From positions 1,387,001 through 1,451,000 of the forward strand of contig NZ_CP119392.1 of NCBI RefSeq assembly GCF_029224025.1: a stretch of DNA of 64,000 nucleotides, written 5' to 3'. Each line of letters starts with the position of its first letter. Within the stretch, counting starts at the first letter, position 1. This document shows, one piece after another, positions 32,912 to 54,324 of this stretch. The stretch comes from Rhodanobacter sp. AS-Z3 (GTDB lineage Bacteria > Pseudomonadota > Gammaproteobacteria > Xanthomonadales > Rhodanobacteraceae). The translations under genes were made by a program, and so were the position numbers. A model generated the notes under the pieces. That model was not told the DNA's origin and did no database searches. It saw only the letters and a list, made by a program, of their open reading frames with translations.

Positions 32912-34183
32912 ATGATTCGCGACACCTCTGCGCAGGACAAACTGGTTCAGGTCCAACCCAACCGCAAACGCCGGATGATCCTGATCGGTGCCGGCGTGCT
33001 GATGTTGGCCTTGCTGGCGTGGCTTGCGCCGGGTATTGGCCGGTTGTTCTCGGCGTCTGCCTCGGTGAGCAGTTCGCGGCTGGCATTTGCCACGGTTGAG
33101 CGTGGCCCGTTCGTTCGTGACATTGCCGCCGAAGGCAAGGTCGTTGCCGCGGTCAGTCCGACTTTGTACGCCACTTCTGGCGGCGCGGTCACACTGAAGG
33201 TGCACGCGGGCGACACGGTAAAGATCGGCCAGGTGATGGCCACCATTGTGAGCCCGGAGCTGACCAACAAACTGGCGCAGGAGCAGAGCAACGCCGACGC
33301 GATGCAAGTGGAATACCTGCGTGCGCAGATCGAGGCGCGCAAACAACGTTCGGCGCTGCAGGAAGCCTACGACAACGCCGGCATCGATCAGACCACGGCC
33401 GAGCGCAACCTTGACCGCTACCAGAAGGCGTTCGACAAGGGCGCGGTGTCCAGCATGGACGTGGACAAGGCGAAGGATTCGCTGGACAAGGCGAAGATCG
33501 CCACCACGCACGCCAAGGCCAATCTCGGTCTGGACAACGACAGCCTCAACTTCGACATCCAGTCCAAGAAGCTGGCGCACGAACGTCAGTTGCTGATGGT
33601 GAAAGACCTGCAGCGGCAGGTTGACGATCTCAATGTGAAGTCGCCGGTGGACGGGCAGGTCGGCCAGCTGTTCATCGCCGAGCGTGCCACCGTGGCGAAG
33701 GACGCCCAGTTGTTGAGCGTGATCGACTTGTCTGCGCTGCAGGTGGAAATGCAGGTGCCGGAAAGTTTTGCGCGCGATCTGGGCATTGGCATGTCCGGTG
33801 AGATCAGTGGCAACGGCCATACCTGGAAGGGTCTGGTCAGCGCGATCTCGCCCGAAGTCGTCAACGGCCAGGTTGCCGCGCGCTTGCGCTTCGACGGCGA
33901 AACACCGAAGCAGTTGCGCCAGAACCAGCGCCTGTCGGTACGCGTGCTGCTGGACAAGCGCGACAACGTGCTGACCGTGCAGCGCGGCTCCTTCGTCGAC
34001 GAATCCGGCGGCAGCTATGCGTACCTGGTGCGCGACGGCATCGCCAAGAAAACCCCGATCCGTGTCGGCGCTTCCAGCATCGACAAGGTGGAGATTCTTG
34101 AAGGCCTGAAGGAAGGCGACAAGATCGTGATCTCCGGCACTGACAGCTTCAAGGGTGCGGCGACCGTCGCGATCAGCAACTGA
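32912..34183 (+). CDS. Periplasmic adaptor (membrane-fusion protein, HlyD/MacA type)
   Basis: A 423-residue protein anchored in the inner membrane by one helix (about residues 23-41), with the rest periplasmic. It has the adaptor layout: a split lipoyl domain (GGAVTLKVHAGDTVKIGQVM; VKSPVDGQVGQLF) around a long alpha-helical hairpin (about residues 120-235, rich in K, A, Q and D), then a beta-barrel domain and a membrane-proximal domain ending KEGDKIVISG. Adaptors of this kind link MacB-type permeases to an outer-membrane channel; no TolC homologue is in the window. It is the first gene behind the sigma-54 promoter and the only adaptor for fourteen permeases. Confidence 0.88.
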   Translation: MIRDTSAQDKLVQVQPNRKRRMILIGAGVLMLALLAWLAPGIGRLFSASASVSSSRLAFATVERGPFVRDIAAEGKVVAAVSPTLYATSGGAVTLKVHAGDTVKIGQVMATIVSPELTNKLAQEQSNADAMQVEYLRAQIEARKQRSALQEAYDNAGIDQTTAERNLDRYQKAFDKGAVSSMDVDKAKDSLDKAKIATTHAKANLGLDNDSLNFDIQSKKLAHERQLLMVKDLQRQVDDLNVKSPVDGQVGQLFIAERATVAKDAQLLSVIDLSALQVEMQVPESFARDLGIGMSGEISGNGHTWKGLVSAISPEVVNGQVAARLRFDGETPKQLRQNQRLSVRVLLDKRDNVLTVQRGSFVDESGGSYAYLVRDGIAKKTPIRVGASSIDKVEILEGLKEGDKIVISGTDSFKGAATVAISN

Positions 34184-34345
34184 TGAAAGCAGGGAACAGG
34201 GAACGAGGAACGTGCAGATACCGGAGTCCGAGAACTTGTGGCTCGAGCCCGGTGAAGGGCGCAATGCCCGAGTGACCGAAAGCTTGATGTTCCCCATTCC
34301 CCATTCCCCGTTCCCCATTCCCGCTCCAAGCGCCACCACTACCAC
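34184..34345. repeat. GGGAAC / TTCCCC repeat tract between adaptor and ATPase genes
   Basis: The 177-base gap contains GGGAACAGGGAACGAGGAACG near its left end. Near its right end are four tandem copies of TTCCCCA-like heptamers (34289-34321), the inverse of the first. A sister tract with the same words lies at 60300-60417 between phoU and pstB. The two halves could pair into a long imperfect hairpin in the mRNA. Confidence 0.55.
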
Positions 34346-34360
34346 CACCGAGGAACAACC

Positions 34361-35080
34361 ATGCTGAAGATGACCCACCTGTCGAAGGTCTACCGCACTG
34401 AAGTGGTGGAAACCTATGCGCTGCGTGATTTCAACATCGACGTGAAAGAGGGTGAGTTCGTTGCCGTCACCGGTCCGTCCGGCTCGGGCAAGACCACCTT
34501 TTTGACCATTGCCGGCCTGCTGGAAACCTTCACCGGTGGCGAGTATCACCTCGACGGCATCGAGGTGAGCAACCTCAACGACAACGCGCGCTCAAAGATC
34601 CGCAACGAGAAGATCGGCTTCATCTTTCAGGCGTTCAACCTGATTCCCGATCTCAATGTGTTCGACAACATCGAAGTGCCGCTGCGCTATCGCGGCATGA
34701 AGAGTGCCGAGCGCAAAAAACGCATCATGGATTCGCTGGAGCGCGTGGGTTTGGCCTCGCGCGCCAAGCACTATCCGGCCGAACTGTCCGGTGGTCAGCA
34801 ACAGCGGGTGGCAATCGCCCGTGCACTGGCTGGCAGCCCGCGCCTGCTGCTAGCCGATGAACCGACCGGCAACCTGGACACCCAGATGGCGCGCGGCGTG
34901 CTGGAGTTGCTCGAAGAAATTCATCGTGACGGCGCCACCATCGTGATGGTCACCCATGACCCCGAACTGGCCGCGCGTGCGCAGCGCAACGTGCACATCA
35001 TCGACGGCCAGGTGGTTGAGCTTTCCGAAGACCCGCGCTTCCACACGCACGCCGACATGGCCGCGCAATCTCATACCTGA
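34361..35080 (+). CDS. ABC transporter ATP-binding protein (MacB/LolD type)
   Basis: A 239-residue ATPase with Walker A GPSGSGKTT (about residues 41-49), Q-loop FQAFNLIPDL, signature [15 protein letters not shown], Walker B LLADEPTGNLD and switch VTHDPELA. The LSGGQQQR plus EPTGNLD combination marks the MacB/LolD/FtsE class that powers FtsX-type permeases. It is the only ABC ATPase gene in the array, so it presumably serves all seven permease pairs. The C-terminus (HADMAAQSHT) is short, with no extra domain. Confidence 0.93.
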   Translation: MLKMTHLSKVYRTEVVETYALRDFNIDVKEGEFVAVTGPSGSGKTTFLTIAGLLETFTGGEYHLDGIEVSNLNDNARSKIRNEKIGFIFQAFNLIPDLNVFDNIEVPLRYRGMKSAERKKRIMDSLERVGLASRAKHYPAELSGGQQQRVAIARALAGSPRLLLADEPTGNLDTQMARGVLELLEEIHRDGATIVMVTHDPELAARAQRNVHIIDGQVVELSEDPRFHTHADMAAQSHT

Positions 35081-35085
35081 TCGTC

Positions 35086-35174
35086 GGTAGGAGCCCGCTC
35101 GCGGGCGCTGCTTTTGCTGATTCGTTCGACCGTGGTCAAGCCAGGAGCATCGCCCCCAAGCGCACTCCTACGGG
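35086..35174. repeat. Inverted REP-like pair (GTAGGAGC ... GCACTCCTAC)
   Basis: A GTAGGAGCCCGCTCGCGGGC half with its own small stem is followed about 60 bases later by the inverted form ending GCGCACTCCTACGGG. A second copy of this kind lies at 63114-63187. Such paired palindromes are typical REP/BIME elements of Xanthomonadales and Pseudomonas. It separates the ATPase gene from the first permease. Confidence 0.7.
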
Positions 35175-35202
35175 TACGTCGTGATTGCTGAAGGATAGAC
35201 AG

Positions 35203-36528
35203 ATGTTTTCCTACTACCTCGAGTTGGCCGTCCGCAGCCTCCGCCGCAGTCCCGGTCTCACCGCGTTGATGGTACTGGCGATCGGCTTCGGCGTGGCCGC
35301 GTCGATGACCACCTGGTCGGTGTTCCGCGCGGTATCGGGTGATCCGATTCCGTGGAAATCCTCGCAGCTGTTCGTGCCGCAGATCGATATGTGGGGCCCC
35401 AAGGGTCATGCGCCCAACAGCACCGACACCGAGCCACCGGATGCGCTGGACTACATCGACGCGATGGCGATGATGCGTGCCCATCGTGGCAAGCTGCAGT
35501 CGGCGATGTACCAGATATCGCCCTCCGTGGTGCCTTTCGATGCCAGCAAGCATCCGATCAATGTCAGCGGACACGCGGTCTTCAGCGAGTTCTTCCCGAT
35601 GCTCGACACGCCGTTCCTGTATGGCGGCGGCTGGAGCGCTACCGACGACAGTCAGCGCGCCGCTGTGGCGGTGATCAGCAGCAAACTCAACGAGAAGCTG
35701 TTCGCCGGCGCCAACAGCGTGGGTCGCACGTTGAGTATCGACGGCAAGGACTATCGCGTGGTGGGTGTGCTGAATCACTGGAATCCGCAGCCACGCTTCT
35801 ACGACGTGGTCAACAGCGGCGGCTTTTCCACCGGTGCAGAAGACGTCTTCGTGCCCTTCGAACGTGCCATTGCGATGGGCATGCCGAACGATGGCAACAC
35901 CAATTGCTCCGAGACACCGGCGCAATCCGGCTTCGTCGGCATGCAGCAATCCAGTTGCATCTGGATTGCCTACATGGTGCAACTCGATGACGCGGCGGCG
36001 GTTACGGCGTACCGCAGCTGGCTGGACGGCTACGCGAAAGAGCAGCAGCAGGCCGGCCGTTTCAGCTGGCCGCCGAACAACCGGCTGCGTGACGTGCCGG
36101 CGTTCCTTGATCACGAGCAGGTTGTGCCCAGTGACACCAAGGTCTCGTTGCTGGTGGCGTTGGGACTGCTGATTGTCTGCCTGGTCAACACGGCAGGATT
36201 GTTGCTGGCGAAGTTCCTTCGTCGCAGCACCGAGATCGGCGTGCGTCGCGCGCTGGGTGCGCCACGCCGGGCGATCTACGCGCAGTTTCTCACCGAGGCC
36301 GGGATGATCGGTCTGGCCGGCGGCGTGCTCGGACTGCTGCTGACTGGCGTCGGCGTCGCCAGCGTCAGCTGGGTATTGCCGCGGGACATCGCCTCGTTGG
36401 CAAAGCTGGATTTCTCGCTGCTCGGCCTGACCCTGCTGATTGCCGTGTTGGCGACCATGCTGGCCGGTCTGTATCCCACCTTCCGAGCCTCACGCGTGCA
36501 ACCCGCGTGGCAGCTGAAGTCGAATTAG
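35203..36528 (+). CDS. FtsX/MacB-type permease, pair 1 type a
   Basis: A 441-residue permease with one N-terminal helix (about 17-38), a large periplasmic domain (about 40-315) and three C-terminal helices, the MacB topology without its own ATPase. The start MFSYYLELAVRSLRRSPGL differs from the FAYYLDLALRSLKRN of later type-a copies, and the last third is also more divergent (VLPRDIASLAKLDFSLLG). Together with its partner it looks like the founding or most diverged pair. Two periplasmic cysteines (235 and 252) may form a disulphide. The AAGGAT site is 6 bases before ATG 35203. Confidence 0.9.
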   Translation: MFSYYLELAVRSLRRSPGLTALMVLAIGFGVAASMTTWSVFRAVSGDPIPWKSSQLFVPQIDMWGPKGHAPNSTDTEPPDALDYIDAMAMMRAHRGKLQSAMYQISPSVVPFDASKHPINVSGHAVFSEFFPMLDTPFLYGGGWSATDDSQRAAVAVISSKLNEKLFAGANSVGRTLSIDGKDYRVVGVLNHWNPQPRFYDVVNSGGFSTGAEDVFVPFERAIAMGMPNDGNTNCSETPAQSGFVGMQQSSCIWIAYMVQLDDAAAVTAYRSWLDGYAKEQQQAGRFSWPPNNRLRDVPAFLDHEQVVPSDTKVSLLVALGLLIVCLVNTAGLLLAKFLRRSTEIGVRRALGAPRRAIYAQFLTEAGMIGLAGGVLGLLLTGVGVASVSWVLPRDIASLAKLDFSLLGLTLLIAVLATMLAGLYPTFRASRVQPAWQLKSN

Positions 36529-36615
36529 TGCGCTGTCCCTGCGCAAGAAAGCGGCCATTCATGGCCGCACTCCTCGGAAACGCCGGTTTCAATGGGCCAT
36601 AAAAGGAACAACTTC

Positions 36616-37869
36616 ATGACACTGCATCCCATGATCTCGGCGCTGCGGCGGCACAAGGCCGGTGTGGTGTTGATCGCCCTGCAGATCGCGCTGACCCTGG
36701 CGATCGTCTGCAACGCGGTATTCATCATCGGTCAGCGTATCGAACGGGTGAACCGCCCGACCGGCCTGGACGAAAGCAACTTGTTCCTGATCAGCCAGCA
36801 ATGGGTAGGCGCGCCCAGCGGTGATGATGCAGACAGCGTCCAGAAACTGGACAACATGCAGCTGGCTGATCTCGCCGCGCTGCGCAGCCTGCCGGATGTC
36901 GCCTCGGTGGCGCCTGTCAATTCACTGCCGCTGTTGAACTCCTCGTGGAATGGCTCGGTGGCGGTAAAACCGGGTCACGAGTTGCGTGATGGAAACGCGC
37001 GTACCACCTACTACTTCAGTGACGAGCAGATGCTGTCGACGTTGGGGCTCAAGCTGGTCGCCGGACGCAACTTCACCGCAGCTGACGTGCAGCATCGCGG
37101 ATTTCGCGATCAGACCGAACCGTCCATCGTGATCCTGACCAAGGCGCTGGCCGACAAGCTGTTCCCCAAGGGTGATGCGCTGGGCAAGGTGATTTACCTC
37201 GATGGCAGCCCGGCGCCGACCACCATCATCGGCCTGGTCGAGCGCCTGCAGGTTCCTGCCACGGGCAGCTGGACCAATGCGTTTGTCTGGAATTCGGTAC
37301 TGGTGCCGACGCGGCTCAATGCCAACTTCGCGCGCTACGCGGTGCGTGCCCGGCCCGGTCGGCTGCAGGCGGCCATCAAGTCGGTGACGCCTGCGTTGTA
37401 CAAGGTCAACCCGCTGCGTGTGCTGGATGACGACAGCGTCCGCTCCTTCGCCGACATCCGCACCGAGGCCTACCGCGCCGACGTGGGCATGGCGATCCTG
37501 ATGGGCGTGGTCTGCCTGATCCTGCTGGCAGTCACCGCGGCCGGCATCGTCGGACTCACCAGCTTCTGGGTCGGTCAGCGTCACCGGCAGATCGGCGTGC
37601 GCCGTGCACTGGGTGCTCGGAAAATCGACATCCTGCATTACTTCCAGCTGGAGAACCTGGTGATCGCCGGCATTGGCGCGGTGGTTGGCCTGCTGTTGGC
37701 GGTGGGTTTGAACATGCTGTTGATGCAGCACTTCGAAATGGACCGGCTGCCGGTGCCCTACGTGCTGGCCGGTGTTGCGCTGGTGTTGGCGCTGGGGCAG
37801 GGCGCGGTGTTCGTGCCAGCGCGACGTGCTTCCAACGTGCCGCCGGTGGTCGCCACCCGAGCTGTCTAG
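36616..37869 (+). CDS. FtsX/MacB-type permease, pair 1 type b
   Basis: A 417-residue permease with the same four-helix topology. The N-terminal helix carries the type-b signature VCNAVF, and the coupling segment reads RHRQIGVRRALGARKIDILHYFQLEN. The C-terminal helix (ALVLALGQGAVFVPARRAS) departs from the other six type-b copies, which almost all read LWALGQLAVLGPALRAA. Only the extreme end, VPPVVATR, is shared. The periplasmic domain has no cysteine. ATG 36616 follows AAAGGAAC; the gap to the type-a gene is 87 bases, the largest within any pair. Confidence 0.9.
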   Translation: MTLHPMISALRRHKAGVVLIALQIALTLAIVCNAVFIIGQRIERVNRPTGLDESNLFLISQQWVGAPSGDDADSVQKLDNMQLADLAALRSLPDVASVAPVNSLPLLNSSWNGSVAVKPGHELRDGNARTTYYFSDEQMLSTLGLKLVAGRNFTAADVQHRGFRDQTEPSIVILTKALADKLFPKGDALGKVIYLDGSPAPTTIIGLVERLQVPATGSWTNAFVWNSVLVPTRLNANFARYAVRARPGRLQAAIKSVTPALYKVNPLRVLDDDSVRSFADIRTEAYRADVGMAILMGVVCLILLAVTAAGIVGLTSFWVGQRHRQIGVRRALGARKIDILHYFQLENLVIAGIGAVVGLLLAVGLNMLLMQHFEMDRLPVPYVLAGVALVLALGQGAVFVPARRASNVPPVVATRAV

Positions 37870-37947
37870 AACCTCACGACAAACCTCGCCAGCGCAGGCG
37901 TGCTGCTGGCGGATGTCCCTTCGATGCTGACCGATGCTGGAGTTGTC

Positions 37948-38451
37948 GTGAACAAATTCGCTGCGTTGCTGATTGCCATTCCCGTGCTCGCGCTGTCCGG
38001 CTCGCCCGCTGCCTCTGCGGCGGACAAGCAGCAGCCGCCACCGAGCTCAGGCAGTGCGTTGTTCAACACGATATCGGCACTGGATACGGCGGTGTTCGAT
38101 GCGTTCAACCACTGCAGCGTGCCGGCGCAATTGCAGAAGCACGCCAGCTATTTCGCGCCCGATGTCGAGTTCTATCACGACACCGGCGGGGTCACCTGGA
38201 CACGCAAGGAAATGATCGACAAGACCCGCCAGAACGTCTGCGGCCATTTTCGGCGCGAACTGGTGCCCGGCAGCCTGAAGGTTTATCCGATCAAGGATTT
38301 CGGCGCTATCGAGCAAGGCGTGCACCGCTTCTGCCAGTTCGATACCGGCAAGTGCGATGGCATCGCCGACTTCACCATCGTGTGGCGCCATCAGGGTGAT
38401 GCATGGCAGATCACGCGGGTGCTCAGCTATGGGCACCATGCGGTCGAATAA
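37948..38451 (+). CDS. Secreted NTF2-like (SnoaL/DUF4440-type) protein embedded in the array
   Basis: A 167-residue protein with a clear signal peptide (VNKFAALLIAIPVLALSG to about residue 28, ending ASA). GTG 37948 is the likely start because GGAG lies 5 bases upstream and the signal peptide begins there. The mature part resembles the NTF2-like cone fold: SALDTAVFDAFNHCS at the start, YFAPDVEFYHDTGG and the final FTIVWRHQGDAWQITRVLSY. Such domains bind small molecules or act as enzymes. It is the only non-permease gene between the pairs and may be a periplasmic ligand-binding or modifying partner; that role is an inference. Confidence 0.75.
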   Translation: MNKFAALLIAIPVLALSGSPAASAADKQQPPPSSGSALFNTISALDTAVFDAFNHCSVPAQLQKHASYFAPDVEFYHDTGGVTWTRKEMIDKTRQNVCGHFRRELVPGSLKVYPIKDFGAIEQGVHRFCQFDTGKCDGIADFTIVWRHQGDAWQITRVLSYGHHAVE

Positions 38452-38532
38452 CAGCGGTTCGACCCGTCGCGCACCAAGCATCGTTCCCATCGCAACGCAG
38501 TGAAAGAAAGCATCCGTCCCCGGAAAACACGA

Positions 38533-39825
38533 ATGTTCGCCTACTACCTCGACCTCGCCCTGCGCAGCCTGAAACGCAACAAGGCACTCACCACGCTGAT
38601 GGTGCTGGCGATCGCGCTGGGCATTGGCACCAGCATGACCACGCTAACCGTGCTTCATGTGCTGTCGGGCGATCCCATTCCTCAGAAAAGCGCGCAGCTG
38701 TTTCGTGTGCGCATGGATGTCTTTCCCGATGATCGTTTCGAAACCGGCGAAGAGGCGCCGGAAAATCTGAGTCGTCACGATACGGACGCCTTGCTGCGTG
38801 ATGGTCGCGCCGATCGCCAGGCGGTGATGTCGGCCGGCTCGATGGTGGTGACGCCCGCGCAAGGCGAATTGCTGGCCGTGGAGGCGCGTTACACCACCGC
38901 GGATTTCTTCCCGATGTTCGACGTGCCGCTGCGTTACGGCAGCGCCTGGAGTAGGGCGGACGACGCCGCACATGCGCATGTCGCGGTGATTTCAGATTCG
39001 CTGAATCAGCAACTGTTCGGGGGCAAGAACAGCGTCGGACAGACCTTGCGGGTTGGCAACCAGGGCCTGCGCATCGTCGGCGTGCTCGGTGACTGGGACA
39101 TGAATCCGCGCTTCTACGATTTGAGCAACAGTCAGTTCGGCGACAGCGAGCAGGTTTTTGTTCCCATGGATACGGCGCTGGACCTGAAGTTGGCCACCAG
39201 TGGCAGCATGAATTGCTGGGGCAACGTACAGGATAACCATGCGGCGGATGCGCCGTGTCTGTGGCTGCAATACTGGGTCGAGCTGGACTCGCCGACGAAG
39301 GCGGCCGTCTATCGGCAGTATCTGCAGAATTACATTGCGATCCAGCACCAATCGGGGCGTTTCAAGCATTCTGGAAATGTCGCGCTGCAGGATGTCATGC
39401 AGTGGCTGGATCACAACGGCGTGGTGCCTTCGGACGTACGTCTGCAGATGTGGCTGGCATTGAGTTTTCTCGGCATCTGCCTGCTCAACACGGTCGGCCT
39501 GCTATTGGCCAAGTTCCTGCGTCGCAGTGGCGAGCTTGGCGTGCGCCGTGCGCTGGGTGCTTCACGCTCGGCGATCTTTCTGCAGTGCCTCGTCGAGGCG
39601 GCCGTAGTGGGGCTTGCCGGCGGGGTACTCGGCCTGGCCCTGGCCAGTCTCGGTTTGGTGCTCGTGCGCGCCCAGCCTACCGACTATGCGGCGTATATCC
39701 ACATGGACCTGCGCATGTTGCTGTCCACGTTCGCCTTGTCCTTGCTGGTCAGCGTGCTGGCCGGCGTGTTGCCGGCGTGGCGAGCCACGCAAGTAGCGCC
39801 TGCCATCGCGCTGAAGTTGAACTAG
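38533..39825 (+). CDS. FtsX/MacB-type permease, pair 2 type a
   Basis: A 430-residue permease. It begins FAYYLDLALRSLKRNKAL, the consensus for copies 2-5, followed by the LSGDPIP motif at the end of helix 1. The periplasmic cysteines are 228 and 242. The coupling segment LAKFLRRSGELGVRRALGAS near residue 330 faces the ATPase side. The first 150 bases are about nine-tenths identical by eye to those of the pair-3 type-a gene, pointing to recent duplication or gene conversion. It is 28 bases upstream of its partner. Confidence 0.9.
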   Translation: MFAYYLDLALRSLKRNKALTTLMVLAIALGIGTSMTTLTVLHVLSGDPIPQKSAQLFRVRMDVFPDDRFETGEEAPENLSRHDTDALLRDGRADRQAVMSAGSMVVTPAQGELLAVEARYTTADFFPMFDVPLRYGSAWSRADDAAHAHVAVISDSLNQQLFGGKNSVGQTLRVGNQGLRIVGVLGDWDMNPRFYDLSNSQFGDSEQVFVPMDTALDLKLATSGSMNCWGNVQDNHAADAPCLWLQYWVELDSPTKAAVYRQYLQNYIAIQHQSGRFKHSGNVALQDVMQWLDHNGVVPSDVRLQMWLALSFLGICLLNTVGLLLAKFLRRSGELGVRRALGASRSAIFLQCLVEAAVVGLAGGVLGLALASLGLVLVRAQPTDYAAYIHMDLRMLLSTFALSLLVSVLAGVLPAWRATQVAPAIALKLN

Positions 39826-39853
39826 TCGATCCGGTGAACGAAGGACAACACCC

Positions 39854-41077
39854 ATGAACTTCATCCACATTCTTCGTGCCCTGCGCAAGCATCGGATTGC
39901 CGTCGCCCTGCTGGTGCTTGAGATCGCGTTCTCTTGTGCGGTGATTTGCAACGCGCTGTTCCTCATCGGTACGCGGCTGGAACGCATGCACCGGCCTACC
40001 GGTGTCGACGAAAGTCATCTGGTTCAGTTGCGCGTACACAGTGTTGCGCTCGGTTCGCCCGAATCGATCCTGGCGCAGACCCGCACCGACCTGGCGGCCT
40101 TGCGTGCGATCAGTGGTGTCACTGACGCGTCGATCGTCAATCAAACACTGTTTGGCAACAGTTTCAGTTCCAGCGGCGTAAGCCTCAGCGACGACGCCAA
40201 GGCGCCCCGCATCGGGGTGACGCAATACATGGGCGATGCAAGCTTGTTCGATACGCTGGGACTGAAGTTGGCGGCAGGGCGCCAATTCAATGCAGATGAG
40301 TTCGTCACCTCGGCACAACTGGATGGCGGTGTCTCTGGCGTGCCGGTGATGATCACTCGCGCCTTGGCTGCTCATCTGTTTCCAGGGCAGTCGGCGGCAG
40401 GAAAGAACATCTATGCGTTTGGCGCCAACCCGGTGGTCGGTGTGATTGATCGGCTGGTGCAGCCGCGAGACGACGGATCGGTGGGGCAGTACGACTATGC
40501 CATGGTGTTTCCCATCGATCTGGCCTATCCGCGCGGCACTTATTTGTTGCGGGTGAAAGACTCCACTCAACGGCAAGCGGTGATCGAGCGAGCTATCCAG
40601 ACGCTCAAGACGAGCGGGCCGCTACGCCTGGTTTCGTCCAGGAGCGCAACGACGCTTGAAGCGGCGCGCAACAAGTACTACCGCAATGATCGCGCGATGG
40701 CCTGGTTGCTGGTCGGGGTTTGCGTTCTGCTGCTCGTCGTCACCGCCATGGGTATCGTCGGCCTTACCAGCTTCTGGGTAGCGCAACGTCGACGTCAGAT
40801 CGGCATTCGCCGCGCGATCGGTGCGACAAGGGGCGACATTCTTGGTTATTTCCAGACCGAAAACTTCCTGATTTCCAGTTTTGGCATCGCGCTCGGCATG
40901 GTTCTGGCCTACGGCTTCAATCTTTTGCTGATGCTGCATTACGAACTGGGGCGATTGCCCGGTTACTACTTCCCCATCGGTGCGTTGGTGTTGTGGGCAC
41001 TGGGACAACTGGCAGTACTGGGGCCGGCACTGCGCGCCGCCGCGGTGTCACCGGTGGTGGCGACGAGGAACGTGTGA
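39854..41077 (+). CDS. FtsX/MacB-type permease, pair 2 type b
   Basis: A 407-residue permease with the type-b helix signature CAVICNALF and coupling segment RRRQIGIRRAIGATRGDILGYF. The periplasmic domain has the conserved 'SVSLSD...DTLGLKLAAGRQFNADEF'-like middle found in MacB-type domains, but no cysteine. The C-terminus ends VSPVVATRNV. Its stop codon overlaps the next type-a start (TGATG at 41075-41079), so pairs 2 and 3 are translationally coupled. Confidence 0.9.
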   Translation: MNFIHILRALRKHRIAVALLVLEIAFSCAVICNALFLIGTRLERMHRPTGVDESHLVQLRVHSVALGSPESILAQTRTDLAALRAISGVTDASIVNQTLFGNSFSSSGVSLSDDAKAPRIGVTQYMGDASLFDTLGLKLAAGRQFNADEFVTSAQLDGGVSGVPVMITRALAAHLFPGQSAAGKNIYAFGANPVVGVIDRLVQPRDDGSVGQYDYAMVFPIDLAYPRGTYLLRVKDSTQRQAVIERAIQTLKTSGPLRLVSSRSATTLEAARNKYYRNDRAMAWLLVGVCVLLLVVTAMGIVGLTSFWVAQRRRQIGIRRAIGATRGDILGYFQTENFLISSFGIALGMVLAYGFNLLLMLHYELGRLPGYYFPIGALVLWALGQLAVLGPALRAAAVSPVVATRNV

Positions 41078-44987: not shown

Positions 44988-44994
44988 GGTGAGC

Positions 44995-46227: not shown

Positions 46228-46369
46228 AAGTCTGCATGAATCATTCACGCTTGTGGTGGACCTCGCCTGTCGCGCGGGTTCGGCTCTGTCCCACACCTCG
46301 TTGGCAGTGGGTGTCGTTCTTCCGTGTCGCTCCGACCGTCCAACCTGTCTCTGTCTTCGAGGGTGAACC

Positions 46370-47692
46370 ATGATGTTTGCTTATTACCTCGACCTCGCCC
46401 TGCGCAGCCTCAAGCGCAACCGGACACTCACGGCGCTAATGGTGTTGGCAATCGCTGTTGGCATCGGTGCCAGCATGACCACGCTGACCGTGATGCACTT
46501 GCTGTCGGGCGATCCGCTGCCGGGCCGAAGCGCGCATATCTACTACCCACAGGTGGATGCATCGCCAGCGGGTTACGCGAAAGGCGGGCCGCTCGATGTG
46601 CTCGACTATCACTCGGCGGTGGATCTTTGGACGGCGCATCGCGCGGATCGCCAGGCGTTGCTCGCCAACAGCGACGTGAAGGTGCAGGCACCCGGTTCGA
46701 CGTTGCCGCCGCTGATGTTGCCGATGCTGGCGACGACTTCTGACTTCTTTGCGATGTTCGACGTGCCGTTCCAGTACGGCAGCGCCTGGACGGCGGAAGA
46801 TGCTGCCAGCCGGGCGCGCGTGGCGGTGATTTCATCCAGCCTCAACGACCGCTTGTTCGGTGGCGCCAACAGCGTGGGCAAGACCGTGCGCCTGAAAGAC
46901 AGTGACGTGCGCATTGTCGGCGTGTTGCAGAAGTGGCGGCCGTCGCCGCGCTTCTACGATGTGCGCGGTGGTCGTTTTGCCCAGGGCCAGACCTCGTCGT
47001 TCTACGACAAGCCGCAAGACGTGTTCGTGCCGTTCTTCAGCGCGCTGGAGATCAACGACGGTAACTTCTGGCAGTTCACTTGTTGGGGCGCCGTGTCCAC
47101 GCCCGGGCATTTGCAGGACGCGCCGTGTGCGTGGGTGGCGCTGTGGGTGCAACTGGACAGTGCAGCCAAGGCCACGGACTACCGCAGCTTCATGACGCAT
47201 TACGCCCAGGAGCAGAAGCAGTTGGGTCGTTTCGCCAACACCCAGACGCGCATGCCGAGCCTGATGCAGTGGCTGGATTTGAACCATGTGGTGCCCAGTG
47301 ACGTGAGACTGCAGACCTGGCTGGCGTTTGCGTTCCTGGCGATCTGCCTGTTCAACACGGTGGGGCTGCTGCTGGCCAAGTTCCTGCGTCGCAGTAACGA
47401 GATCGGCGTGCGGCGTGCGCTGGGCGCCAGTCGTGGGGCGGTGTTCGCTCAATGCCTGGTGGAGGCCGGCATGGTGGGCCTGGTCGGTGGTATCGGCGGC
47501 TGGTTGCTGACCTTGCTGGGTCTGTGGCTGGTGCGTCAGCAGCCGGTCGAGTACGCCGACTTTGCGCATCTGGACCTTGGCATGTTCGGCCTGACGTTTG
47601 TGCTGGCGATTGCAGCCAGCCTGCTGGCCGGCGTGTTGCCGGCATTGCGAGCCAGTCGCGTGGCACCGGGGCTGCAACTCAAGACGCTTTAG
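46370..47692 (+). CDS. FtsX/MacB-type permease, pair 5 type a
   Basis: A 440-residue permease beginning FAYYLDLALRSLKRNRTL with LSGDPLPGRS after helix 1. The periplasmic domain is slightly longer than in pairs 2-4, with a GRFAQGQTSSFYDKPQ insert, and holds cysteines 238 and 253. The coupling segment is LAKFLRRSNEIGVRRALGAS. It follows a 142-base spacer without an obvious promoter; an AGGGTGAACC ribosome site precedes the ATG. The partner starts 78 bases downstream. Confidence 0.91.
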   Translation: MMFAYYLDLALRSLKRNRTLTALMVLAIAVGIGASMTTLTVMHLLSGDPLPGRSAHIYYPQVDASPAGYAKGGPLDVLDYHSAVDLWTAHRADRQALLANSDVKVQAPGSTLPPLMLPMLATTSDFFAMFDVPFQYGSAWTAEDAASRARVAVISSSLNDRLFGGANSVGKTVRLKDSDVRIVGVLQKWRPSPRFYDVRGGRFAQGQTSSFYDKPQDVFVPFFSALEINDGNFWQFTCWGAVSTPGHLQDAPCAWVALWVQLDSAAKATDYRSFMTHYAQEQKQLGRFANTQTRMPSLMQWLDLNHVVPSDVRLQTWLAFAFLAICLFNTVGLLLAKFLRRSNEIGVRRALGASRGAVFAQCLVEAGMVGLVGGIGGWLLTLLGLWLVRQQPVEYADFAHLDLGMFGLTFVLAIAASLLAGVLPALRASRVAPGLQLKTL

Positions 47693-47770
47693 CGCGCGAT
47701 CACCGCGCAAGCAACCGGCGCTCCATGGCCGGAATCATCACTGGAACGGTTTCCTACAGGTAGTGACCTC

Positions 47771-48985
47771 ATGCAGATCCAACCCATACTCGCTGCCCTG
47801 CGCAAGCATCGTCTATCGACGATTCTGATCGCGCTGGAAATTGCCTTGGCGTGTGCGGTGCTGTGCAACGCCTGTTTCATGATTACCCAGCGCATCAGCG
47901 CGATGCATGTTGACAGTGGCGTGGATGAAGCCGCGCTGGCGACGGTGCAACTGACCGGCTATGAACCGGCCCAGGCCGGCGACGTGGATGCACGGGTGCT
48001 GGCTGCCATGCGCGCGGTTCCCGGTGTGCAGTCGGCGTCGCTGCTGAACTCGATACCGTTCGGCAGTCGCCGTGGTACGGCAGGTCTCACCACCGATGCG
48101 GCTGGCCAGCATTTCGGCGGCGTGGTCGAGTTCTATGTGGGTGGTCCGGGCAGTCTGCATGCGCTTGGGGCCCAAGTGGTCGCGGGCCGTGCATCGCAGC
48201 CGGATGACTTTCAGCCGTTCACCGGATTCATGCCCGATGGTGGCTCCGTGCAAATCACCCAGTCGCTGGCCGAACACCTGTGGCCCGGTGTCGATCCGCT
48301 GGGCAAGGAATTCTGGGTGCTGAAGTCGCACTTCCGCGTCGTCGGTGTGCTGAAAAATCTGGTGCGGCCTGATCCGCTGGGCTGGGCGCCGCAAGAGCGC
48401 CAGTGGTCGGTGTTCGTGCCGGCGCAACCTGGTCCGTACCTCACCGGAAGCTATTTGTTGCGGGCGAATCCCGCCGACCTGCCGCGGGTGATGCGTGATG
48501 TTCTCGCGGCCGTTGCCAAAGCCGTGCCGAACGTGGTGATTGATCGGGAAAACAGCCATGCGCTGACCGAACTGCGCCACGACGTATTCAAGCCCGATCG
48601 CGCGATGACCGGCATGCTGATCGGCGTGATCGTGGCCTTGTTGCTGGTCACTGCGCTGGGCATCGTCGGTCTCGCCAGTTTCTGGGTGCAGCAGCGGCAG
48701 CGACAGATCGGTATTCGCCGCGCCATCGGCGCCACCCGCGGCGACATTCTGCGCTACTTCCAGACCGAGAATTTTCTGATCGTCAGTGGCGGCATCGCGC
48801 TGGGCATGCTGCTGGCGTATGGACTCAATCTGGTCCTGATGCAGCACTACGAATTGCCGCGCTTGCCGGCGTATTACCTGCCCATCGGCGCGCTGGTGCT
48901 GTGGGCGCTGGGGCAGTTGGCAGTGCTCGGACCGGCGCTGCGCGCCGCGGCGGTGCCGCCGGTGGTGGCGACAAGATCGGTGTAG
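47771..48985 (+). CDS. FtsX/MacB-type permease, pair 5 type b
   Basis: A 404-residue permease, the shortest in the array. Helix 1 reads CAVLCNACF, with one extra cysteine inside the membrane. The coupling segment RQRQIGIRRAIGATRGDILRYF and the following TENFLIVSGGIALGMLL are nearly identical to pair 7 type b. The periplasmic part contains no cysteine. The end is VPPVVATRSV. The next pair starts after 55 bases. Confidence 0.91.
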   Translation: MQIQPILAALRKHRLSTILIALEIALACAVLCNACFMITQRISAMHVDSGVDEAALATVQLTGYEPAQAGDVDARVLAAMRAVPGVQSASLLNSIPFGSRRGTAGLTTDAAGQHFGGVVEFYVGGPGSLHALGAQVVAGRASQPDDFQPFTGFMPDGGSVQITQSLAEHLWPGVDPLGKEFWVLKSHFRVVGVLKNLVRPDPLGWAPQERQWSVFVPAQPGPYLTGSYLLRANPADLPRVMRDVLAAVAKAVPNVVIDRENSHALTELRHDVFKPDRAMTGMLIGVIVALLLVTALGIVGLASFWVQQRQRQIGIRRAIGATRGDILRYFQTENFLIVSGGIALGMLLAYGLNLVLMQHYELPRLPAYYLPIGALVLWALGQLAVLGPALRAAAVPPVVATRSV

Positions 48986-49040
48986 TGCAAATGCGGTTGT
49001 CGGAGTTTGCAGCGTTGTGGATTTGACGAGGGAGAAGGGA

Positions 49041-50360
49041 ATGTGGGGTTACAACATGGAACTGGCGTGGCGCGGTTTGCGGCATTTTCCGCGGATCACG
49101 TTGTTGAATGTGTTGGCGTTGGCCTTGGGTCTTGGCGCCACGGTAACGGCGCAAACCGTGACGCGGCTGTTGTCGGGTGATCCACTGCCCAATCGCAGTG
49201 GTTCGTTGTACGCCGTGCAAATGGATGCGCGCAGCAAGGCAGACATCAAGGAGTCCAGCTCGTCCCGGCTCCCCGACCTGTTGCCATGGCTGGACGTGCA
49301 ACAGTTGCAGCACGTGCGGCCGGCAACCCCGCAGACGGCGGTGATCAATACCGACTTTCTGACCGTCAGCGGTACCGTGGGTGGAGCGGTGAAGGAAGTG
49401 AAGAATGTTTCCGGTCTGCAGGTGCAGAGTGCGTTCTTCGACATGTTTGCTGTGCCCTTGCTGCAGGGGCGCGCCTGGAGCACCCGTGATGATGAAGCGG
49501 CGTTACCGGTTGCGGTGATCTCCAGTGAGTTGAGTCACCGCCTGTTCGGCGACGCCTCGGCGCTGGGGCAGTCCGTGCAGATCGGCGGCAAGTTGTTCCG
49601 CGTGGTGGCCGTCAGCGGCGTGTGGAAGCCGTACCCGCATTTTTATGGACTGGGCATGTGCGTTTACGCATGCCCGGCCGAAGAGGTTTTCATTCCAGTC
49701 GCGGCGGCGCGGGAGCAGGGCGTGCGACTGGCCAGCTTCTCGACCTGTGGCACCCAGTCGATCACCAAGCCCGATGCCGCGATATGTCCGTATCTTGGTT
49801 TTTGGGTTCAATTGTCCACGGCGGAACAGCGCGCCGATTATCGGCAGATGCTCACGCGTTATGCCGATACGCAACATGCCGCGGGTCGGTTCGCGAACGG
49901 CGGCGCATCGGCGGTGGGTCTGCAGGATGTTCATGTCTTTCTTGATGCACATCATCTAGTGCCGGTGAGCGCGCGCTTCGGCGTCTGGTTGTCGTTGTCA
50001 TTCCTGCTGGTGTGTCTGGCCAATGTCGCCGGCCTGTTGCTGACCCGTTTCCTGCGCAGTTCGGTGGAGTTGGGTATTCGGCGTGCGCTGGGCGCATCGC
50101 GTCGCGCGATCTTTTCGCAGTGTCTGCTGGAAGCGGGCTTGATTGGCGTCAGCGGAGGCGTGCTGGCGTTGCCGCTGGTCGGGCTGGGTTTGTATCTGGT
50201 GCGCCTGCAGCCGGTCGCTTACGCCAGTGTCATCCGACTGGACTGGTCGGTGGCGTTGACGCTGTTGCTGCTTTCGCTGGTGGCCAGCCTGGCCATTGGC
50301 ACGGTACCGGCGTGGCGTGCCTCGGTGGTGGAACCGGGCCTGCAAGTGAAGGAGAACTGA
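49041..50360 (+). CDS. FtsX/MacB-type permease, pair 6 type a
   Basis: A 439-residue permease that is clearly divergent at its N-terminus (MWGYNMELAWRGLRHFPRI) though it keeps LSGDPLPNRS and the coupling segment LTRFLRSSVELGIRRALGAS. Its periplasmic domain has four cysteines: the conserved positions (236 and 249) plus an extra close pair in GMCVYACPAEEV, making it the most cysteine-rich copy. GAGAAGGGA precedes ATG 49041; the TTG at 49017 is a less likely start. The partner starts one base after the stop. Confidence 0.91.
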   Translation: MWGYNMELAWRGLRHFPRITLLNVLALALGLGATVTAQTVTRLLSGDPLPNRSGSLYAVQMDARSKADIKESSSSRLPDLLPWLDVQQLQHVRPATPQTAVINTDFLTVSGTVGGAVKEVKNVSGLQVQSAFFDMFAVPLLQGRAWSTRDDEAALPVAVISSELSHRLFGDASALGQSVQIGGKLFRVVAVSGVWKPYPHFYGLGMCVYACPAEEVFIPVAAAREQGVRLASFSTCGTQSITKPDAAICPYLGFWVQLSTAEQRADYRQMLTRYADTQHAAGRFANGGASAVGLQDVHVFLDAHHLVPVSARFGVWLSLSFLLVCLANVAGLLLTRFLRSSVELGIRRALGASRRAIFSQCLLEAGLIGVSGGVLALPLVGLGLYLVRLQPVAYASVIRLDWSVALTLLLLSLVASLAIGTVPAWRASVVEPGLQVKEN

Positions 50361-50361
50361 G

Positions 50362-51612
50362 ATGAGCTTGCGTCATATCGCCTCGGCCTTGCGCTTCAGT
50401 CGGCTCACCGCTTTCTTCCTGATTCTGCAGACGGCGCTGGCCTGCGCGATTGTCTGCAATGCCTTGTTCTTCATCGCGCAGCAGGCGGCACCGATGCTGG
50501 CTGCCACGGGCGTGGTTGCCGACCAGGTGTTGTATGTCGACCAGATTGCCTTCCCGAGCACGCTCGATCAGGCGACCGGCAGTGTCAGTGGTGGCGCCAA
50601 CCTGGCTGACCTTCGCGCGTTGCAGGCGCATGTTCGTGCCATGCCTGGCGTGCAGTCCGTCGCGCTGGATCTGGGTATGCCTTATACCAGTGGCTTCAAC
50701 GCCGAGGGCAACTGGCTGGATGAAAAAGGCAACACATCCGCAGCAGCCACGCTGTACATGGGTGACCATCTTGTGGATGCGCTGGGTCTGCAGCTGATCG
50801 AAGGGCGCGACTTCCTGCCTGAGGAAATTCAGCCCACGCATGGCATGGAAATGGATGCCTCGGTGGCCATCATTACGGCCGATGTCGCACAGCAACTTTT
50901 CCCCGCCGGTCATGCGCTAGGCCAGCGCATCGTGATGGGCAAGGACGCGGATGCCTTGCGGCCGGTAGTCATCGGTGTGGTGAAGTATCTTGCGGCACGT
51001 CAGCCCACGGACACCGAGCACGCCAATGCCACCGTGATCATGCCGATCATTCCCGGCGACGGATTTTTCATGGCCAACGCGGTGGTGCGCGCCAAGCCGG
51101 GTCAGACGGATGCCGTGGCGCGAGCGTTGCCGGCGCAGCTACGTGAGGATCTGCATTTGTCGCCAACCGCTGAACCACGCGTGCGCCGTTTCGAAACGTT
51201 GCGCGATGACTATTTCAGCGCCAACCGGAACATGATCCTGTTGCTGCTGGGCGTGACCCTTGCGGTGGTCGCCATCACCGTCATCGGCATCATGGGTCTG
51301 ACCGGCTTCTGGGTGCAGCGGCGTCGTCGCCAGATTGGTATTCGGCGCGCATTGGGTGCCACCCGTGGCGACATCCTGCGCCAGTTCCTGCTGGAAAATT
51401 TTCTGGTCGTCAGCGTCGGCATTGTGTTCGGCATGCTCGCCGCTTATGCCGGAAATTTGTGGTTGATGACGCATCTGGAAATGGCCCGGTTGCCGCTGTT
51501 CTGGTTGCCCGTAGGCGCGCTGGTGCTGTGGGCGCTCGGACAACTGGCCGTGCTGTCGCCGGCGCTGCGGGCGGCAGCGGTGCCGCCGGTGGTAGCGACG
51601 AGGAGCGTGTGA
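50362..51612 (+). CDS. FtsX/MacB-type permease, pair 6 type b
   Basis: A 416-residue permease with helix signature CAIVCNALFF and coupling segment RRRQIGIRRALGATRGDILRQF. The N-terminus (MSLRHIASALRFSRLT) lacks the LRKHR seen in most type-b copies. The periplasmic domain has a distinct glycine-rich start (DQATGSVSGGANLADL) and no cysteine. GGAGA precedes the ATG. The C-terminal 25 residues return to the common form (LWALGQLAVLSPALRAAAV), suggesting local sequence exchange with neighbours. A 145-base spacer with a small hairpin follows. Confidence 0.91.
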   Translation: MSLRHIASALRFSRLTAFFLILQTALACAIVCNALFFIAQQAAPMLAATGVVADQVLYVDQIAFPSTLDQATGSVSGGANLADLRALQAHVRAMPGVQSVALDLGMPYTSGFNAEGNWLDEKGNTSAAATLYMGDHLVDALGLQLIEGRDFLPEEIQPTHGMEMDASVAIITADVAQQLFPAGHALGQRIVMGKDADALRPVVIGVVKYLAARQPTDTEHANATVIMPIIPGDGFFMANAVVRAKPGQTDAVARALPAQLREDLHLSPTAEPRVRRFETLRDDYFSANRNMILLLLGVTLAVVAITVIGIMGLTGFWVQRRRRQIGIRRALGATRGDILRQFLLENFLVVSVGIVFGMLAAYAGNLWLMTHLEMARLPLFWLPVGALVLWALGQLAVLSPALRAAAVPPVVATRSV

Positions 51613-51642
51613 TGGGCACATCCGTTGATCATTCGCGCGCAG

Positions 51643-51659
51643 GGCGGGCACTGCCCGCC
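51643..51659 (+). other. Small hairpin in the pair 6 - pair 7 spacer
   Basis: GGCGGG (51643-51648) pairs with CCCGCC (51654-51659) around a 5-base loop. There is no T run, so full termination is unlikely. It may attenuate or mark an mRNA processing site within the long array transcript. Confidence 0.35.
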
Positions 51660-51757
51660 ATGTTGGCGTGGGGTGATCGGGTACGCCGTCGGCGGACAGT
51701 GCTCGTACTACGTGTCACCGGTGCATTGCGACCCACTTTCGCTTCCGCAGGAGACTC

Positions 51758-53074
51758 ATGATGCTCGGCTACTATTTTCATCTGGCACTACGCAGCCTCA
51801 AGCGCAACAAGCTGCTCACGGCGCTGATGGTGCTGGCGATCGGGCTGGGCATCGGTGCGAGCATGACGATGATTACCGTGCTGCATGTGATGACCAGCGA
51901 TCCGCTGCCGGCTCGCAGCGCACAGCTGTTCACGCCACATCTCGATCCGTTGCCACTGGACTACAAGCAGCACGGTGATAGTCCTGATGCCAGCGACAAC
52001 CTGACCTGGCGTGACGCCATGGCCTTGCTGAAGGCGCATCGTGGCGTGCGGCAGGCGGCAATGGCGGGTGGCTCGCTGCTGGTGCATCCGGCACAGACAG
52101 GGTTGCAACCTTTCTACGTGGATGGTCGCTTTGCCACCGCGGATATCTTCGCGATGTTCGGTGTGCCGTTCGAACGCGGGCAGGGCTGGTCCGCGGCAGA
52201 CGATGCGGCACGTGCGCGCGTGGTGGTGTTGAGCGAAACCCTCAACAGGAAATTGTTCGGCAATGCCGACAGCATCGGTCAGAGGGTACGGCTGGGCGAC
52301 GGCGATTATCGAGTGGTCGGCGTGACCACCGATTGGCGCCCGCAACCGATGTTCTATGGCGACATGTCGGCGCAGCAGTTCGCTGATCCCGATCAGTACT
52401 TCCTGCCGCTCTCCGTGGCGGTCGACCTGAAGCTGGATATCAATGGCAATCGTTCAAGCTGGGTCAAGGCGGTGGACCACGGCATGCTGACCAGCGACGG
52501 CATGTCGTGGCTGCAGTTCTGGGTACAACTGGATGGCAGCCAACAGGTGGCTGACTATCGCCGTTTCCTGCTCGACTATTCGGCCGAACAAAAAGCGCTG
52601 GGCCGGTTCCAGCGCCCGCCGACCAACGCGAAGCTCTACAGCTTGATGGGTTGGCTTAGCCACGAGAATCTGGTGCCCAACGACGTGCGCCTGCAAATGT
52701 GGCTGGCGCTGGGCTTCTTGTTTGTCTGCATGACCAACATCGTCGCCTTGCTACTGGCCAAGTTCCTGCGTCGTAGCGGTGAAATCAGCGTGCGCCGCGC
52801 GCTGGGTGCGCGGCGGCGCGATGTGTTTTTACAACTGGGCGTGGAGTCCGCGTTGATCGGGGTGGCCGGCGGCTTGCTGGGTTTGCTGATTGCGCAGTTG
52901 GGCTTGTGGAGCATCCGGCGTCGCCCCGACGACTATGCCCATCTGGCACAAATGGACGTTTCAATGCTGCTGGGCACGATCGCGCTGGCGATGGGTGTCA
53001 GCGTGGCCGCCGGCTTGTTGCCGGCGTGGCGCGCCTGCCGCGTGGCACCCGCCCTGCAACTGAAAACCCTGTGA
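51758..53074 (+). CDS. FtsX/MacB-type permease, pair 7 type a
   Basis: A 438-residue permease beginning LGYYFHLALRSLKRNKLL. The motif after helix 1 is changed to MTSDPLPARS, the only type-a copy without SGDP. It is also the only one that has lost both conserved periplasmic cysteines: the segment reads NRSSWVKAVDHGMLTSDGMS. The coupling segment is LAKFLRRSGEISVRRALGAR. CAGGAGACTC gives a good ribosome site before ATG 51758. Its partner starts 17 bases after the stop. Confidence 0.91.
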   Translation: MMLGYYFHLALRSLKRNKLLTALMVLAIGLGIGASMTMITVLHVMTSDPLPARSAQLFTPHLDPLPLDYKQHGDSPDASDNLTWRDAMALLKAHRGVRQAAMAGGSLLVHPAQTGLQPFYVDGRFATADIFAMFGVPFERGQGWSAADDAARARVVVLSETLNRKLFGNADSIGQRVRLGDGDYRVVGVTTDWRPQPMFYGDMSAQQFADPDQYFLPLSVAVDLKLDINGNRSSWVKAVDHGMLTSDGMSWLQFWVQLDGSQQVADYRRFLLDYSAEQKALGRFQRPPTNAKLYSLMGWLSHENLVPNDVRLQMWLALGFLFVCMTNIVALLLAKFLRRSGEISVRRALGARRRDVFLQLGVESALIGVAGGLLGLLIAQLGLWSIRRRPDDYAHLAQMDVSMLLGTIALAMGVSVAAGLLPAWRACRVAPALQLKTL

Positions 53075-53091
53075 CGATGAGGATTGCCGCG

Positions 53092-54324
53092 ATGAACCTG
53101 CGTCCCATACTTTCCAGCTTGCGCCAACATAAGCTCACCGCCTTCCTGCTGACCATGCAGGTGGCCTTTACCTGCGCCATCGTCTGCAACGTGGTGTTCA
53201 TGATTGCCGGTCGCATGCAGCGCATCAGCGTGCCTACCGGCATGGCCGAAAACGAGTTGTCGGTGATCGCCAGCACGGGCATCGAAAAGGGAGCAAATCC
53301 TCAGGCTCTGCATGCCGCCGATCTGGCAACGCTGCGCGGAGTTCCTGGTGTGCAATCGGTGGTGGCAGTCAGCTATTCGCTGCCACTGAACCAGAACGAG
53401 GGGTCCCGCGGCCTCTGTCCGAGCAAGGAAGCGATGGATCGTGCGATGCAGCGGAACTCGATCGAAGGCAGCGGTTGCATGGAACCTGCCGTATACGACG
53501 GTACACCCGGCCTGATCAAGACGTTGGGCCTGCACTTGGTGGCGGGTCGTGATTTCCAGCCGGAGGAATACGTGAGCGAGGGCAAACCCGCCGTCGCCAT
53601 CGTTACCCGCGCGCTGGCGCAGCATCTGTACCCGGGCAAGCAGGCGCTGGGGCAAAGCATGTACGACGGCGACAATTACATCCGCATCGTGGGCATCGTC
53701 GACACGCTGCTGCGGCCGAACCTGCGTGCGCCGGGCGTCGACGGCGACAGCATGATCTGGCCACAGCGTCCGGCTCATTTGAGTGTGCGCTACGTGATGC
53801 GCAGTGCCCCGCAGGATCGCGCCCGCGTGCTGCAGGCCGCTTCGGCTGCCTTGCTGAAGCTCAACCCGAATCGGTTGATCAATCCGAAGCGCATGCAGAC
53901 TTACCACGAGATCCGCGCCGAATACTTCCAGCGTGACACCACCATGATTGGCCTGTTGATCGCCTCGGCACTGGGCCTGCTGTTCGTCACCGCGCTGGGG
54001 ATCACCGGGCTGGCCAATTTCTGGGTGCAACAACGCACCCGCAGCATCGGCATTCGCCGTGCGATTGGTGCCACTCGCGGCGACATCCTGCGTTACTTCC
54101 AGACCGAGAATTTCCTGATCGTCAGCGGCGGCATCGTGCTGGGCATGTTGCTGGCCTTTCTGCTGAACGCGGTGCTGATGCAGCACTACGAGTTGCCGCG
54201 GCTGCCATGGTTCTATTTGCCAATTGGCGCGCTGGTGCTGTGGGCACTGGGCCAGCTGGCGGTGCTGGGTCCGGCATTGCATGCTGCGGCGGTACCACCC
54301 GTGGTGGCGACACGCTCCATCTGA
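53092..54324 (+). CDS. FtsX/MacB-type permease, pair 7 type b
   Basis: A 410-residue permease with helix signature CAIVCNVVF and coupling segment RTRSIGIRRAIGATRGDILRYF. It is the only type-b copy with periplasmic cysteines (109 and 129), which flank a local insertion (CPSKEAMDRAMQRNSIEG). ATG 53092 has GAGG 9 bases upstream and gives the standard MNLRPILSSLRQHK start; ATG 53077 would add five residues. The end is VPPVVATRSI. It closes the permease array. Confidence 0.91.
   Translation: MNLRPILSSLRQHKLTAFLLTMQVAFTCAIVCNVVFMIAGRMQRISVPTGMAENELSVIASTGIEKGANPQALHAADLATLRGVPGVQSVVAVSYSLPLNQNEGSRGLCPSKEAMDRAMQRNSIEGSGCMEPAVYDGTPGLIKTLGLHLVAGRDFQPEEYVSEGKPAVAIVTRALAQHLYPGKQALGQSMYDGDNYIRIVGIVDTLLRPNLRAPGVDGDSMIWPQRPAHLSVRYVMRSAPQDRARVLQAASAALLKLNPNRLINPKRMQTYHEIRAEYFQRDTTMIGLLIASALGLLFVTALGITGLANFWVQQRTRSIGIRRAIGATRGDILRYFQTENFLIVSGGIVLGMLLAFLLNAVLMQHYELPRLPWFYLPIGALVLWALGQLAVLGPALHAAAVPPVVATRSI

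Follow-up and report, generated by a model that had tools for sequence, protein, structure and literature searches.

ATP-binding cassette (ABC) exporters are usually seen as carrying one ATPase per pump, and MsiK and the group II energy-coupling factor (ECF) transporters are importers that share an ATPase. To our knowledge, genes of the acidobacterial duplicated orphan permease (ADOP) type stand without neighbouring ATPases. Here we analysed a 64,000-nucleotide stretch of the soil bacterium Rhodanobacter sp. AS-Z3 (NCBI RefSeq GCF_029224025.1, contig NZ_CP119392.1, positions 1,387,001 to 1,451,000; locus G000:C1:1387001-1451000), hereafter the window, in which genes for one membrane-fusion (adaptor) protein and one LolD/MacB-class ATPase are followed by seven pairs of MacB/FtsX-type permease genes, each pair consisting of one type a and one type b paralogue. 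Within the thresholds used, it is established that one close ATPase gene accompanies many such pairs across the family Rhodanobacteraceae. Judged from the sequences, the locus probably encodes a MacAB-like exporter with one ATPase and one adaptor, which would be common to many cognate heterodimers differing in specificity.

Several described systems resemble this locus in part. The available excerpt of PMC5985334 describes type VII ABC variants as homodimers or heterodimers with the ATPase either fused or separate. The MacB of MacAB-TolC forms homodimers and, in E. coli, carries the ATPase on the same chain, whereas the array has a separate ATPase, a/b pairs and one ATPase gene per up to 17 pairs. 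As in MacAB-TolC, the adaptor lies in the same operon as the permeases. Against the MacB equivalog PRK10535 (cut-off 966), however, the permeases scored 18–57 bits and the ATPase 213, and the genes are separate rather than fused. The ATPase found its best NCBIfam match in DarD (258 bits), ahead of LolD (219), FtsE (214) and MacB (213), and the adaptor matched DarC and the last type b permease, weakly, DarB; all three nevertheless fall under the equivalog cut-offs of DarBCD (258/375 bits for DarD, 89/450 for DarC, 19/700 for DarB). The likeness to ADOP is that a and b correspond to its two halves and that most pairs scattered outside arrays have no neighbouring ATPase; the array differs in having two separate genes per pair, scores below the cut-off and an ATPase. 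In two Dyadobacter genomes, 28 and 33 'acidobacterial duplicated orphan permease' genes are reported in the excerpt available of PMC11573002, which makes no mention of ATPases for them.

Sharing of a component has precedents. According to part of PMC10147376, FhuC of Staphylococcus aureus is one ATPase that energises several permeases, some of them from ATPase-less loci. FhuC-type systems are importers, whereas the array combines MacB-type pairs with an adaptor and its sharing is deduced from gene content. Anabaena HgdD works with no fewer than seven MacB-like systems, the DevBCA paralogues (PMC8277102, in excerpt). There the outer-membrane channel is common and each paralogue, to judge from the name DevBCA, has its own ATPase, whereas in the array the single component is the ATPase. 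A literature search, mainly of openly readable journals, found among the papers listed no report of a shared ATPase in MacB-type exporters, nor of such an array.

One ATPase gene and many permease pairs

The survey covered 147 genomes of the family, with thresholds of E ≤ 1e-60 for type b and E ≤ 1e-100 for the ATPase; scoring covered 12 permease and 19 ATPase candidates per genome, and an ATPase duplicate diverged past E 1e-100 would escape these counts. Type b and the ATPase were each found in 138/147 genomes, the two sets differing by G133 (type b only) and G180 (ATPase only; a 3.5-kb contig that ends within a type a gene). The array ATPase occurred as one copy in 137/138 genomes and as two in G078. 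Type b was single in 37 genomes, occurred twice or more in 101/138 and reached at least 12 copies in ten. At least two type b genes together with one ATPase were present in 99 genomes, placing the system by gene content in the shared-ATPase class, with one ATPase gene per several permease pairs. A preliminary description of the window, made from its sequence, had proposed one ATPase for many pairs, which this gene content supports well; its expectation that related operons usually have one pair fails for close relatives. Its interpretation as a whole is supported in part. Extra ATPases devoted to single pairs, which it had named as evidence against sharing, were found at the threshold used in one of the 138 genomes (G078) and in none of the other 137.

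Dyella mobilis (G063), when scored in full, had 17 type b genes, of which seven belong to the array and ten lie elsewhere as scattered copies, one ATPase 94% identical to that of the window (next closest 57%) and one adaptor. Genome G144 matched at the same coordinates (17 type b genes in fuller scoring, at least 12 in the family survey). In G066 the array appeared twice as a palindrome on one contig, with two ATPases and 18 type b matches; this is probably an assembly artefact, and the genome was omitted from tree and counts. The adaptor was single in 14/14 genomes (E ≤ 1e-40). Further ATPases in eight genomes searched to E ≤ 1e-60 were 48–57% identical, and in G027, G060 and G064 the array ATPase stood alone at that threshold beside 11, 5 and 13 type b genes. 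Genomes of the family with one pair (G070, G083, G111, G114) retained adaptor, ATPase, a, b and regulator. An ATPase at 1.025 Mb, considered as a LolD comparator for the ATPase rate, was rejected as not being a universal LolD (11/14 genomes without a match at E ≤ 1e-75).

Outside the family, all 11 type a genes (E ≤ 1e-60) in nine genomes from other families of the order had an ATPase within 0.2 kb, a 1:1 ratio. In G036 and G047, from one further family, arrays of one and four pairs had one ATPase each. Since other families show the 1:1 ratio, ATPase sharing seems to have arrived with the permease expansion.

Pairs outside the arrays were read in 26 stretches, which became 22 once L156, the tail of an array, and three stretches duplicating the same place (L055, which lies in G063, L057 and L068) were removed, and 23 with the pair of G078. 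Type a preceded type b in all 23. In 22/23 no MacB-type ATPase was found within ~5–10 kb on each side, the ADOP feature that the array itself does not share, and the best score of these 22 to the array ATPase model was 47 bits (opposite strand), against 398–563 for intact array ATPases. The coupling segments of scattered pairs were 83% and 87% identical to the array consensus, compared with 87% for array members (18 pairs) and 21–57% for six permease halves accompanied by a dedicated ATPase. The source genome has an eighth a/b pair (L001:6564-9129), 1.05 Mb from the array and adjoining an IS3-type transposase open reading frame (ORF), with no ATPase in the 14-kb stretch. One scattered pair of G063 (L148:8288-10861) is a single in-frame ORF of 857 aa, an ADOP-like natural fusion and the sole one found.

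Composition of the array and fold of its proteins

In order on the + strand, the locus comprises the adaptor, the ATPase, the seven a/b pairs, a DUF885 protein, an NtrC-type response regulator and a histidine kinase. The transport genes are as follows.

32912..34183, +, membrane-fusion (adaptor) protein, 423 aa (RND_mfp 125 bits, cut-off 94.9)
34361..35080, +, LolD/MacB-class ATPase, 239 aa (next closest in the genome 56% identical)
35203..36528, +, permease a1 (motifs, Pfam and NCBIfam scans)
36616..37869, +, permease b1 (motifs, Pfam and NCBIfam scans)
38533..39825, +, permease a2 (motifs, FtsX search)
39854..41077, +, permease b2 (motifs, FtsX search)
41077..42375, +, permease a3 (motifs, FtsX search; structure modelled)
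42377..43609, +, permease b3 (motifs, FtsX search; structure modelled)
43683..44987, +, permease a4 (motifs, FtsX search)
44995..46227, +, permease b4 (motifs, FtsX search)
46373..47692, +, permease a5 (motifs, FtsX search)
47771..48985, +, permease b5 (motifs, FtsX search)
49041..50360, +, permease a6 (most divergent; unclustered at the cut used in the 224-pair tree)
50362..51612, +, permease b6 (motifs, FtsX search, pair tree)
51761..53074, +, permease a7 (motifs, FtsX search)
53092..54324, +, permease b7 (motifs, FtsX search, NCBIfam scan)

The 14 permeases, adaptor and ATPase were thus confirmed where the preliminary description had placed them. The a/b alternation it reported holds, but the permeases are not strictly consecutive, as an ORF with a DUF4440 domain lies between b1 and a2; the motifs it named for the two types are present, although a6 departs from them ('NMELAWRGLRH'). 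It had raised an assembly artefact as a possible objection. The array is genuine: the genome is a single 4.09-Mb contig, the copies share only 36–58% (type a) and 34–49% (type b) identity, and many other assemblies show the same architecture; together these points exclude a contig artefact.

Whole-genome searches recovered 14/14 array permeases with FtsX and 13/14 with MacB_PCD (b3 was missed), and a1, b1 and a6, the three scanned singly, scored above both Pfam cut-offs. Four permeases were scanned with the ADOP model TIGR03434 (803 positions). Type a aligned to positions 5–401 and type b to 410–801, so an a/b pair resembles a split duplicated permease, with scores of 147–188 bits per gene against a cut-off of 622 bits. 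AlphaFold2 models of a3 and b3 (predicted local distance difference test, pLDDT, 82 and 92) have the type VII fold, with 5xu1 as best structural match followed by LolCDE, MacB and the heme exporter HrtBA. As expected of type VII permeases, the models predict four helices and a MacB-like periplasmic domain between transmembrane helices 1 and 2, and an ATPase of the LolD/MacB/FtsE class is encoded with the permeases. Its closest solved sequences are 5xu1_A and MJ0796.

The same genome holds a related second system (L002, G000:C1:1282000-1297000, ~3300-14300), consisting of an adaptor, an ATPase (56% identical), two fused ADOP-like permeases (frames of 844 and 903 aa), a 293-aa ORF, a sigma-54 regulator and a kinase.

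Inheritance and divergence of the pairs

Neighbouring permeases alternated between a and b in 435/438 cases, more often than by chance, counting copies of at least 300 bits no more than 1500 bases apart and dropping fragments in G007, G016, G027 and others; the three exceptions were one a gene broken in two (G030) and an unpaired b in each of G016 and G018. The median gap from a to b was 14 bases, compared with 77 from b to the next a. For 224 pairs from 59 loci (permeases under 300 bits or covering 380 positions or fewer, and pairs with an a-b gap of at least 400 bases, were excluded), a and b distances correlated with r 0.88, while 500 shuffles of partners within genomes gave 0.05 (at most 0.11). 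The best a and best b matches lay in the same pair in 6212/7417 cases, against 1351 expected. Such fixed-pair inheritance, read from sequence, fits cognate heterodimers.

The type a tree contained large clades that cross genera; at the cut used they had 42, 31, 29, 28, 23 and 13 members, with support of 0.59–1.0. As these clades span genera, the pairs are mostly old, distinct units rather than products of recent amplification. In the window, a1, a2/a3, a4, a5 and a7 fall in five of the large clades and a6 in none. Among the seven copies, coupling segments were 78% (a) and 81% (b) identical and periplasmic domains 40% (a) and 30% (b), so that the divergence of periplasmic domains over conserved coupling segments, claimed at the outset from the sequence, holds when measured. 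Between orthologue-like genes (tree distance <0.6) the periplasmic domain was 74% identical.

General gene conversion was considered as the cause of the conserved helices and rejected. Third-position identity of different-slot copies, in 25-codon windows, was alike within and between genomes, the difference being small and mostly positive (−0.002 to +0.032). Because this indicates little homogenisation, selection is the more likely cause of conservation. The b genes of the window have up to 81/100 bases in common in 3′ segments, where local exchange may have occurred.

Regulation of the array

Further features of the window that bear on its control or adjoin the permease genes are listed here.

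32852..32867, +, sigma-54 (-24/-12) promoter-like site TGGCACACGGATTGCA, 44 bases 5′ of the adaptor start codon, with 1 mismatch to consensus
37900..38451, +, DUF4440 (SnoaL-like) ORF, 183 aa, between b1 and a2 (signal-peptide-like N-terminus by eye)
54425..56245, +, DUF885 protein with HEGIPGHH motif (signal-peptide-like N-terminus by eye)
56359..57717, +, NtrC-type sigma-54-dependent response regulator (domain scans)
58149..59534, +, sensor histidine kinase with HAMP and HATPase_c (domain scan)

Intergenic gaps from the adaptor through b7 measured -1 to 177 bases, and a sigma-70 scan of 32700-52500 gave one match against 3.8 expected from shuffles; on these two grounds a single transcript is plausible. 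The sigma-54 pattern alone is weak in the window, with 29 matches at up to 2 mismatches against 19.4 expected. A sigma-54-like site (at least 10/12) lay within 300 bases 5′ of the adaptor in 85/85 loci, a redundant set in which the same genomes are repeated and which includes the second system of the source genome; the background rate was 0.03 sites per 300 bases. These sites mostly lay 59–63 bases before the start; in L002 a 12/12 site fell at about the estimated adaptor start. Sites preceded 0/90 ATPase, 0/21 DUF885, 2/45 regulator and 1/37 kinase genes, and among the permeases 30/518 b, 31/401 a after b and 13/99 a after the ATPase. Most arrays read to their end close with a kinase and a response regulator. 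Since the regulator gene adjoins the array and a sigma-54-like site precedes the adaptor, control by the NtrC-type regulator is likely.

Proposed mechanism and alternative explanations

We propose a hub-type MacAB-like (type VII ABC) export system; we infer that the ATPase is physically shared, and likewise the stoichiometry, the direction of transport, the regulation and the substrate. One ATPase, as a dimer, and one periplasmic adaptor would be co-produced with many a/b heterodimers. Each a/b pair would act as a cognate unit, in which the near-identical coupling segments recruit the same ATPase and its own periplasmic domains set specificity. The kinase and sigma-54 activator encoded at the 3′ end would sense an envelope signal and turn on the operon from the -24/-12 promoter before the adaptor. 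Substrates would most likely be amphipathic or peptide-like, picked up in the periplasm or from the inner membrane's outer face and passed out via the adaptor and a TolC-type channel whose gene would lie elsewhere. Envelope-active peptides or amphiphiles are a reasonable guess, given the DUF885 (HEGIPGHH) and kinase neighbours.

That the array ATPase energises all pairs is the simplest explanation of the gene content. The array ATPase might instead serve the first or a few pairs while the others borrow LolD/MacB-class ATPases from other loci, such as the one in the 1.287-Mb system with two fused permeases. The source genome does hold eight other ATPases at least 39% identical (closest 56%), and G078 demonstrates that a pair can own an ATPase. 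Yet each of the eight has its own FtsX-type permease within ~3.2 kb, a second close ATPase is not universal, as the three genomes with the array ATPase alone at E ≤ 1e-60 illustrate, and array and scattered pairs resemble each other in their coupling segments and differ there from the six control halves; borrowing is therefore quite unlikely. Free mixing of subunits, any a with any b, would give up to 49 heterodimers instead of seven. It would draw on coupling segments common to all copies, on probable co-expression and on the lone b that persists in G016 and G018, but partners are inherited together, a and b lie closer to each other than b to the next a, and one a-b fusion exists, which leaves mixing a slim prospect.

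It is also conceivable, although we judge it unlikely, that the copies are redundant dosage copies or BceAB-like sensors signalling to the kinase rather than transporters of distinct substrates. A sensory role would suit the kinase and response regulator that close most arrays, and an excerpted account of FtsEX, of the same class, has it transducing signals rather than transporting; that some copies are interrupted also speaks for this view. The adaptor, however, fits export, and the copies, 34–58% identical, falling in clades across genera and little homogenised at third positions, are unlike dosage copies.

Several observations weigh against the shared-ATPase exporter itself. In G133, on one contig, the ATPase match (L163:10623-11123) spans 132/239 positions and nine a genes follow; this is either a true lesion or a sequencing error. 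The pair of G078 (L165:4748-8037) is the sole scattered pair read with an adjoining array-like ATPase (71% identical). No adaptor was seen beside scattered pairs in the map of those read, and a good sigma-54 site (11 or 12/12) lay within 110 bases of only 5/17, a sixth having one at -245. As the scattered pairs are mostly without a good site, co-regulation is only partial. Interrupted a copies in G030 and G007 and the lone b without a in G016 and G018 indicate, moreover, that not every copy is needed.

We also lean, with less assurance than for the exporter as such, towards a genome-wide hub in which the single-copy type VII ATPase and adaptor would energise at least 17 heterodimers, array-borne and dispersed, under their own or a common regulator. 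If true, this would be the MacB-superfamily counterpart of the shared-ATPase importers and would account for the energy supply of ATPase-less ADOP-type permeases. If the exporter operates as proposed, export specificity multiplies without multiplying motors, one MacB-class ATPase sufficing for up to 17 pairs. The powering of permeases without an adjoining ATPase becomes testable, and the family offers a natural library in which type VII permease residues for substrate choice can be told from those for ATPase coupling.

Neighbouring genes

In many arrays a DUF885 gene with the HEGIPGHH motif sits between the last b and the regulator, and its product may act in the system as a peptidase. Homologues of the DUF4440 ORF are present in the arrays of G047 and G036. 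Among the neighbours of scattered pairs, 20 proteins scanned of 159 called gave no common substrate hint; they included a LytTR regulator with a kinase (twice), a BlaR1-type M56 peptidase, LysR, kinases, TauD, an acyltransferase, an outer-membrane efflux protein and unrelated genes. The LytTR regulator and kinase genes lie 5′ of the pairs in L145 and L146, and the M56 peptidase gene directly 5′ of the pair in L151 (5273-7117). The efflux protein gene lies directly 3′ of a Luteibacter scattered pair (L160:7292-8653), a position that hints at a tripartite pump.

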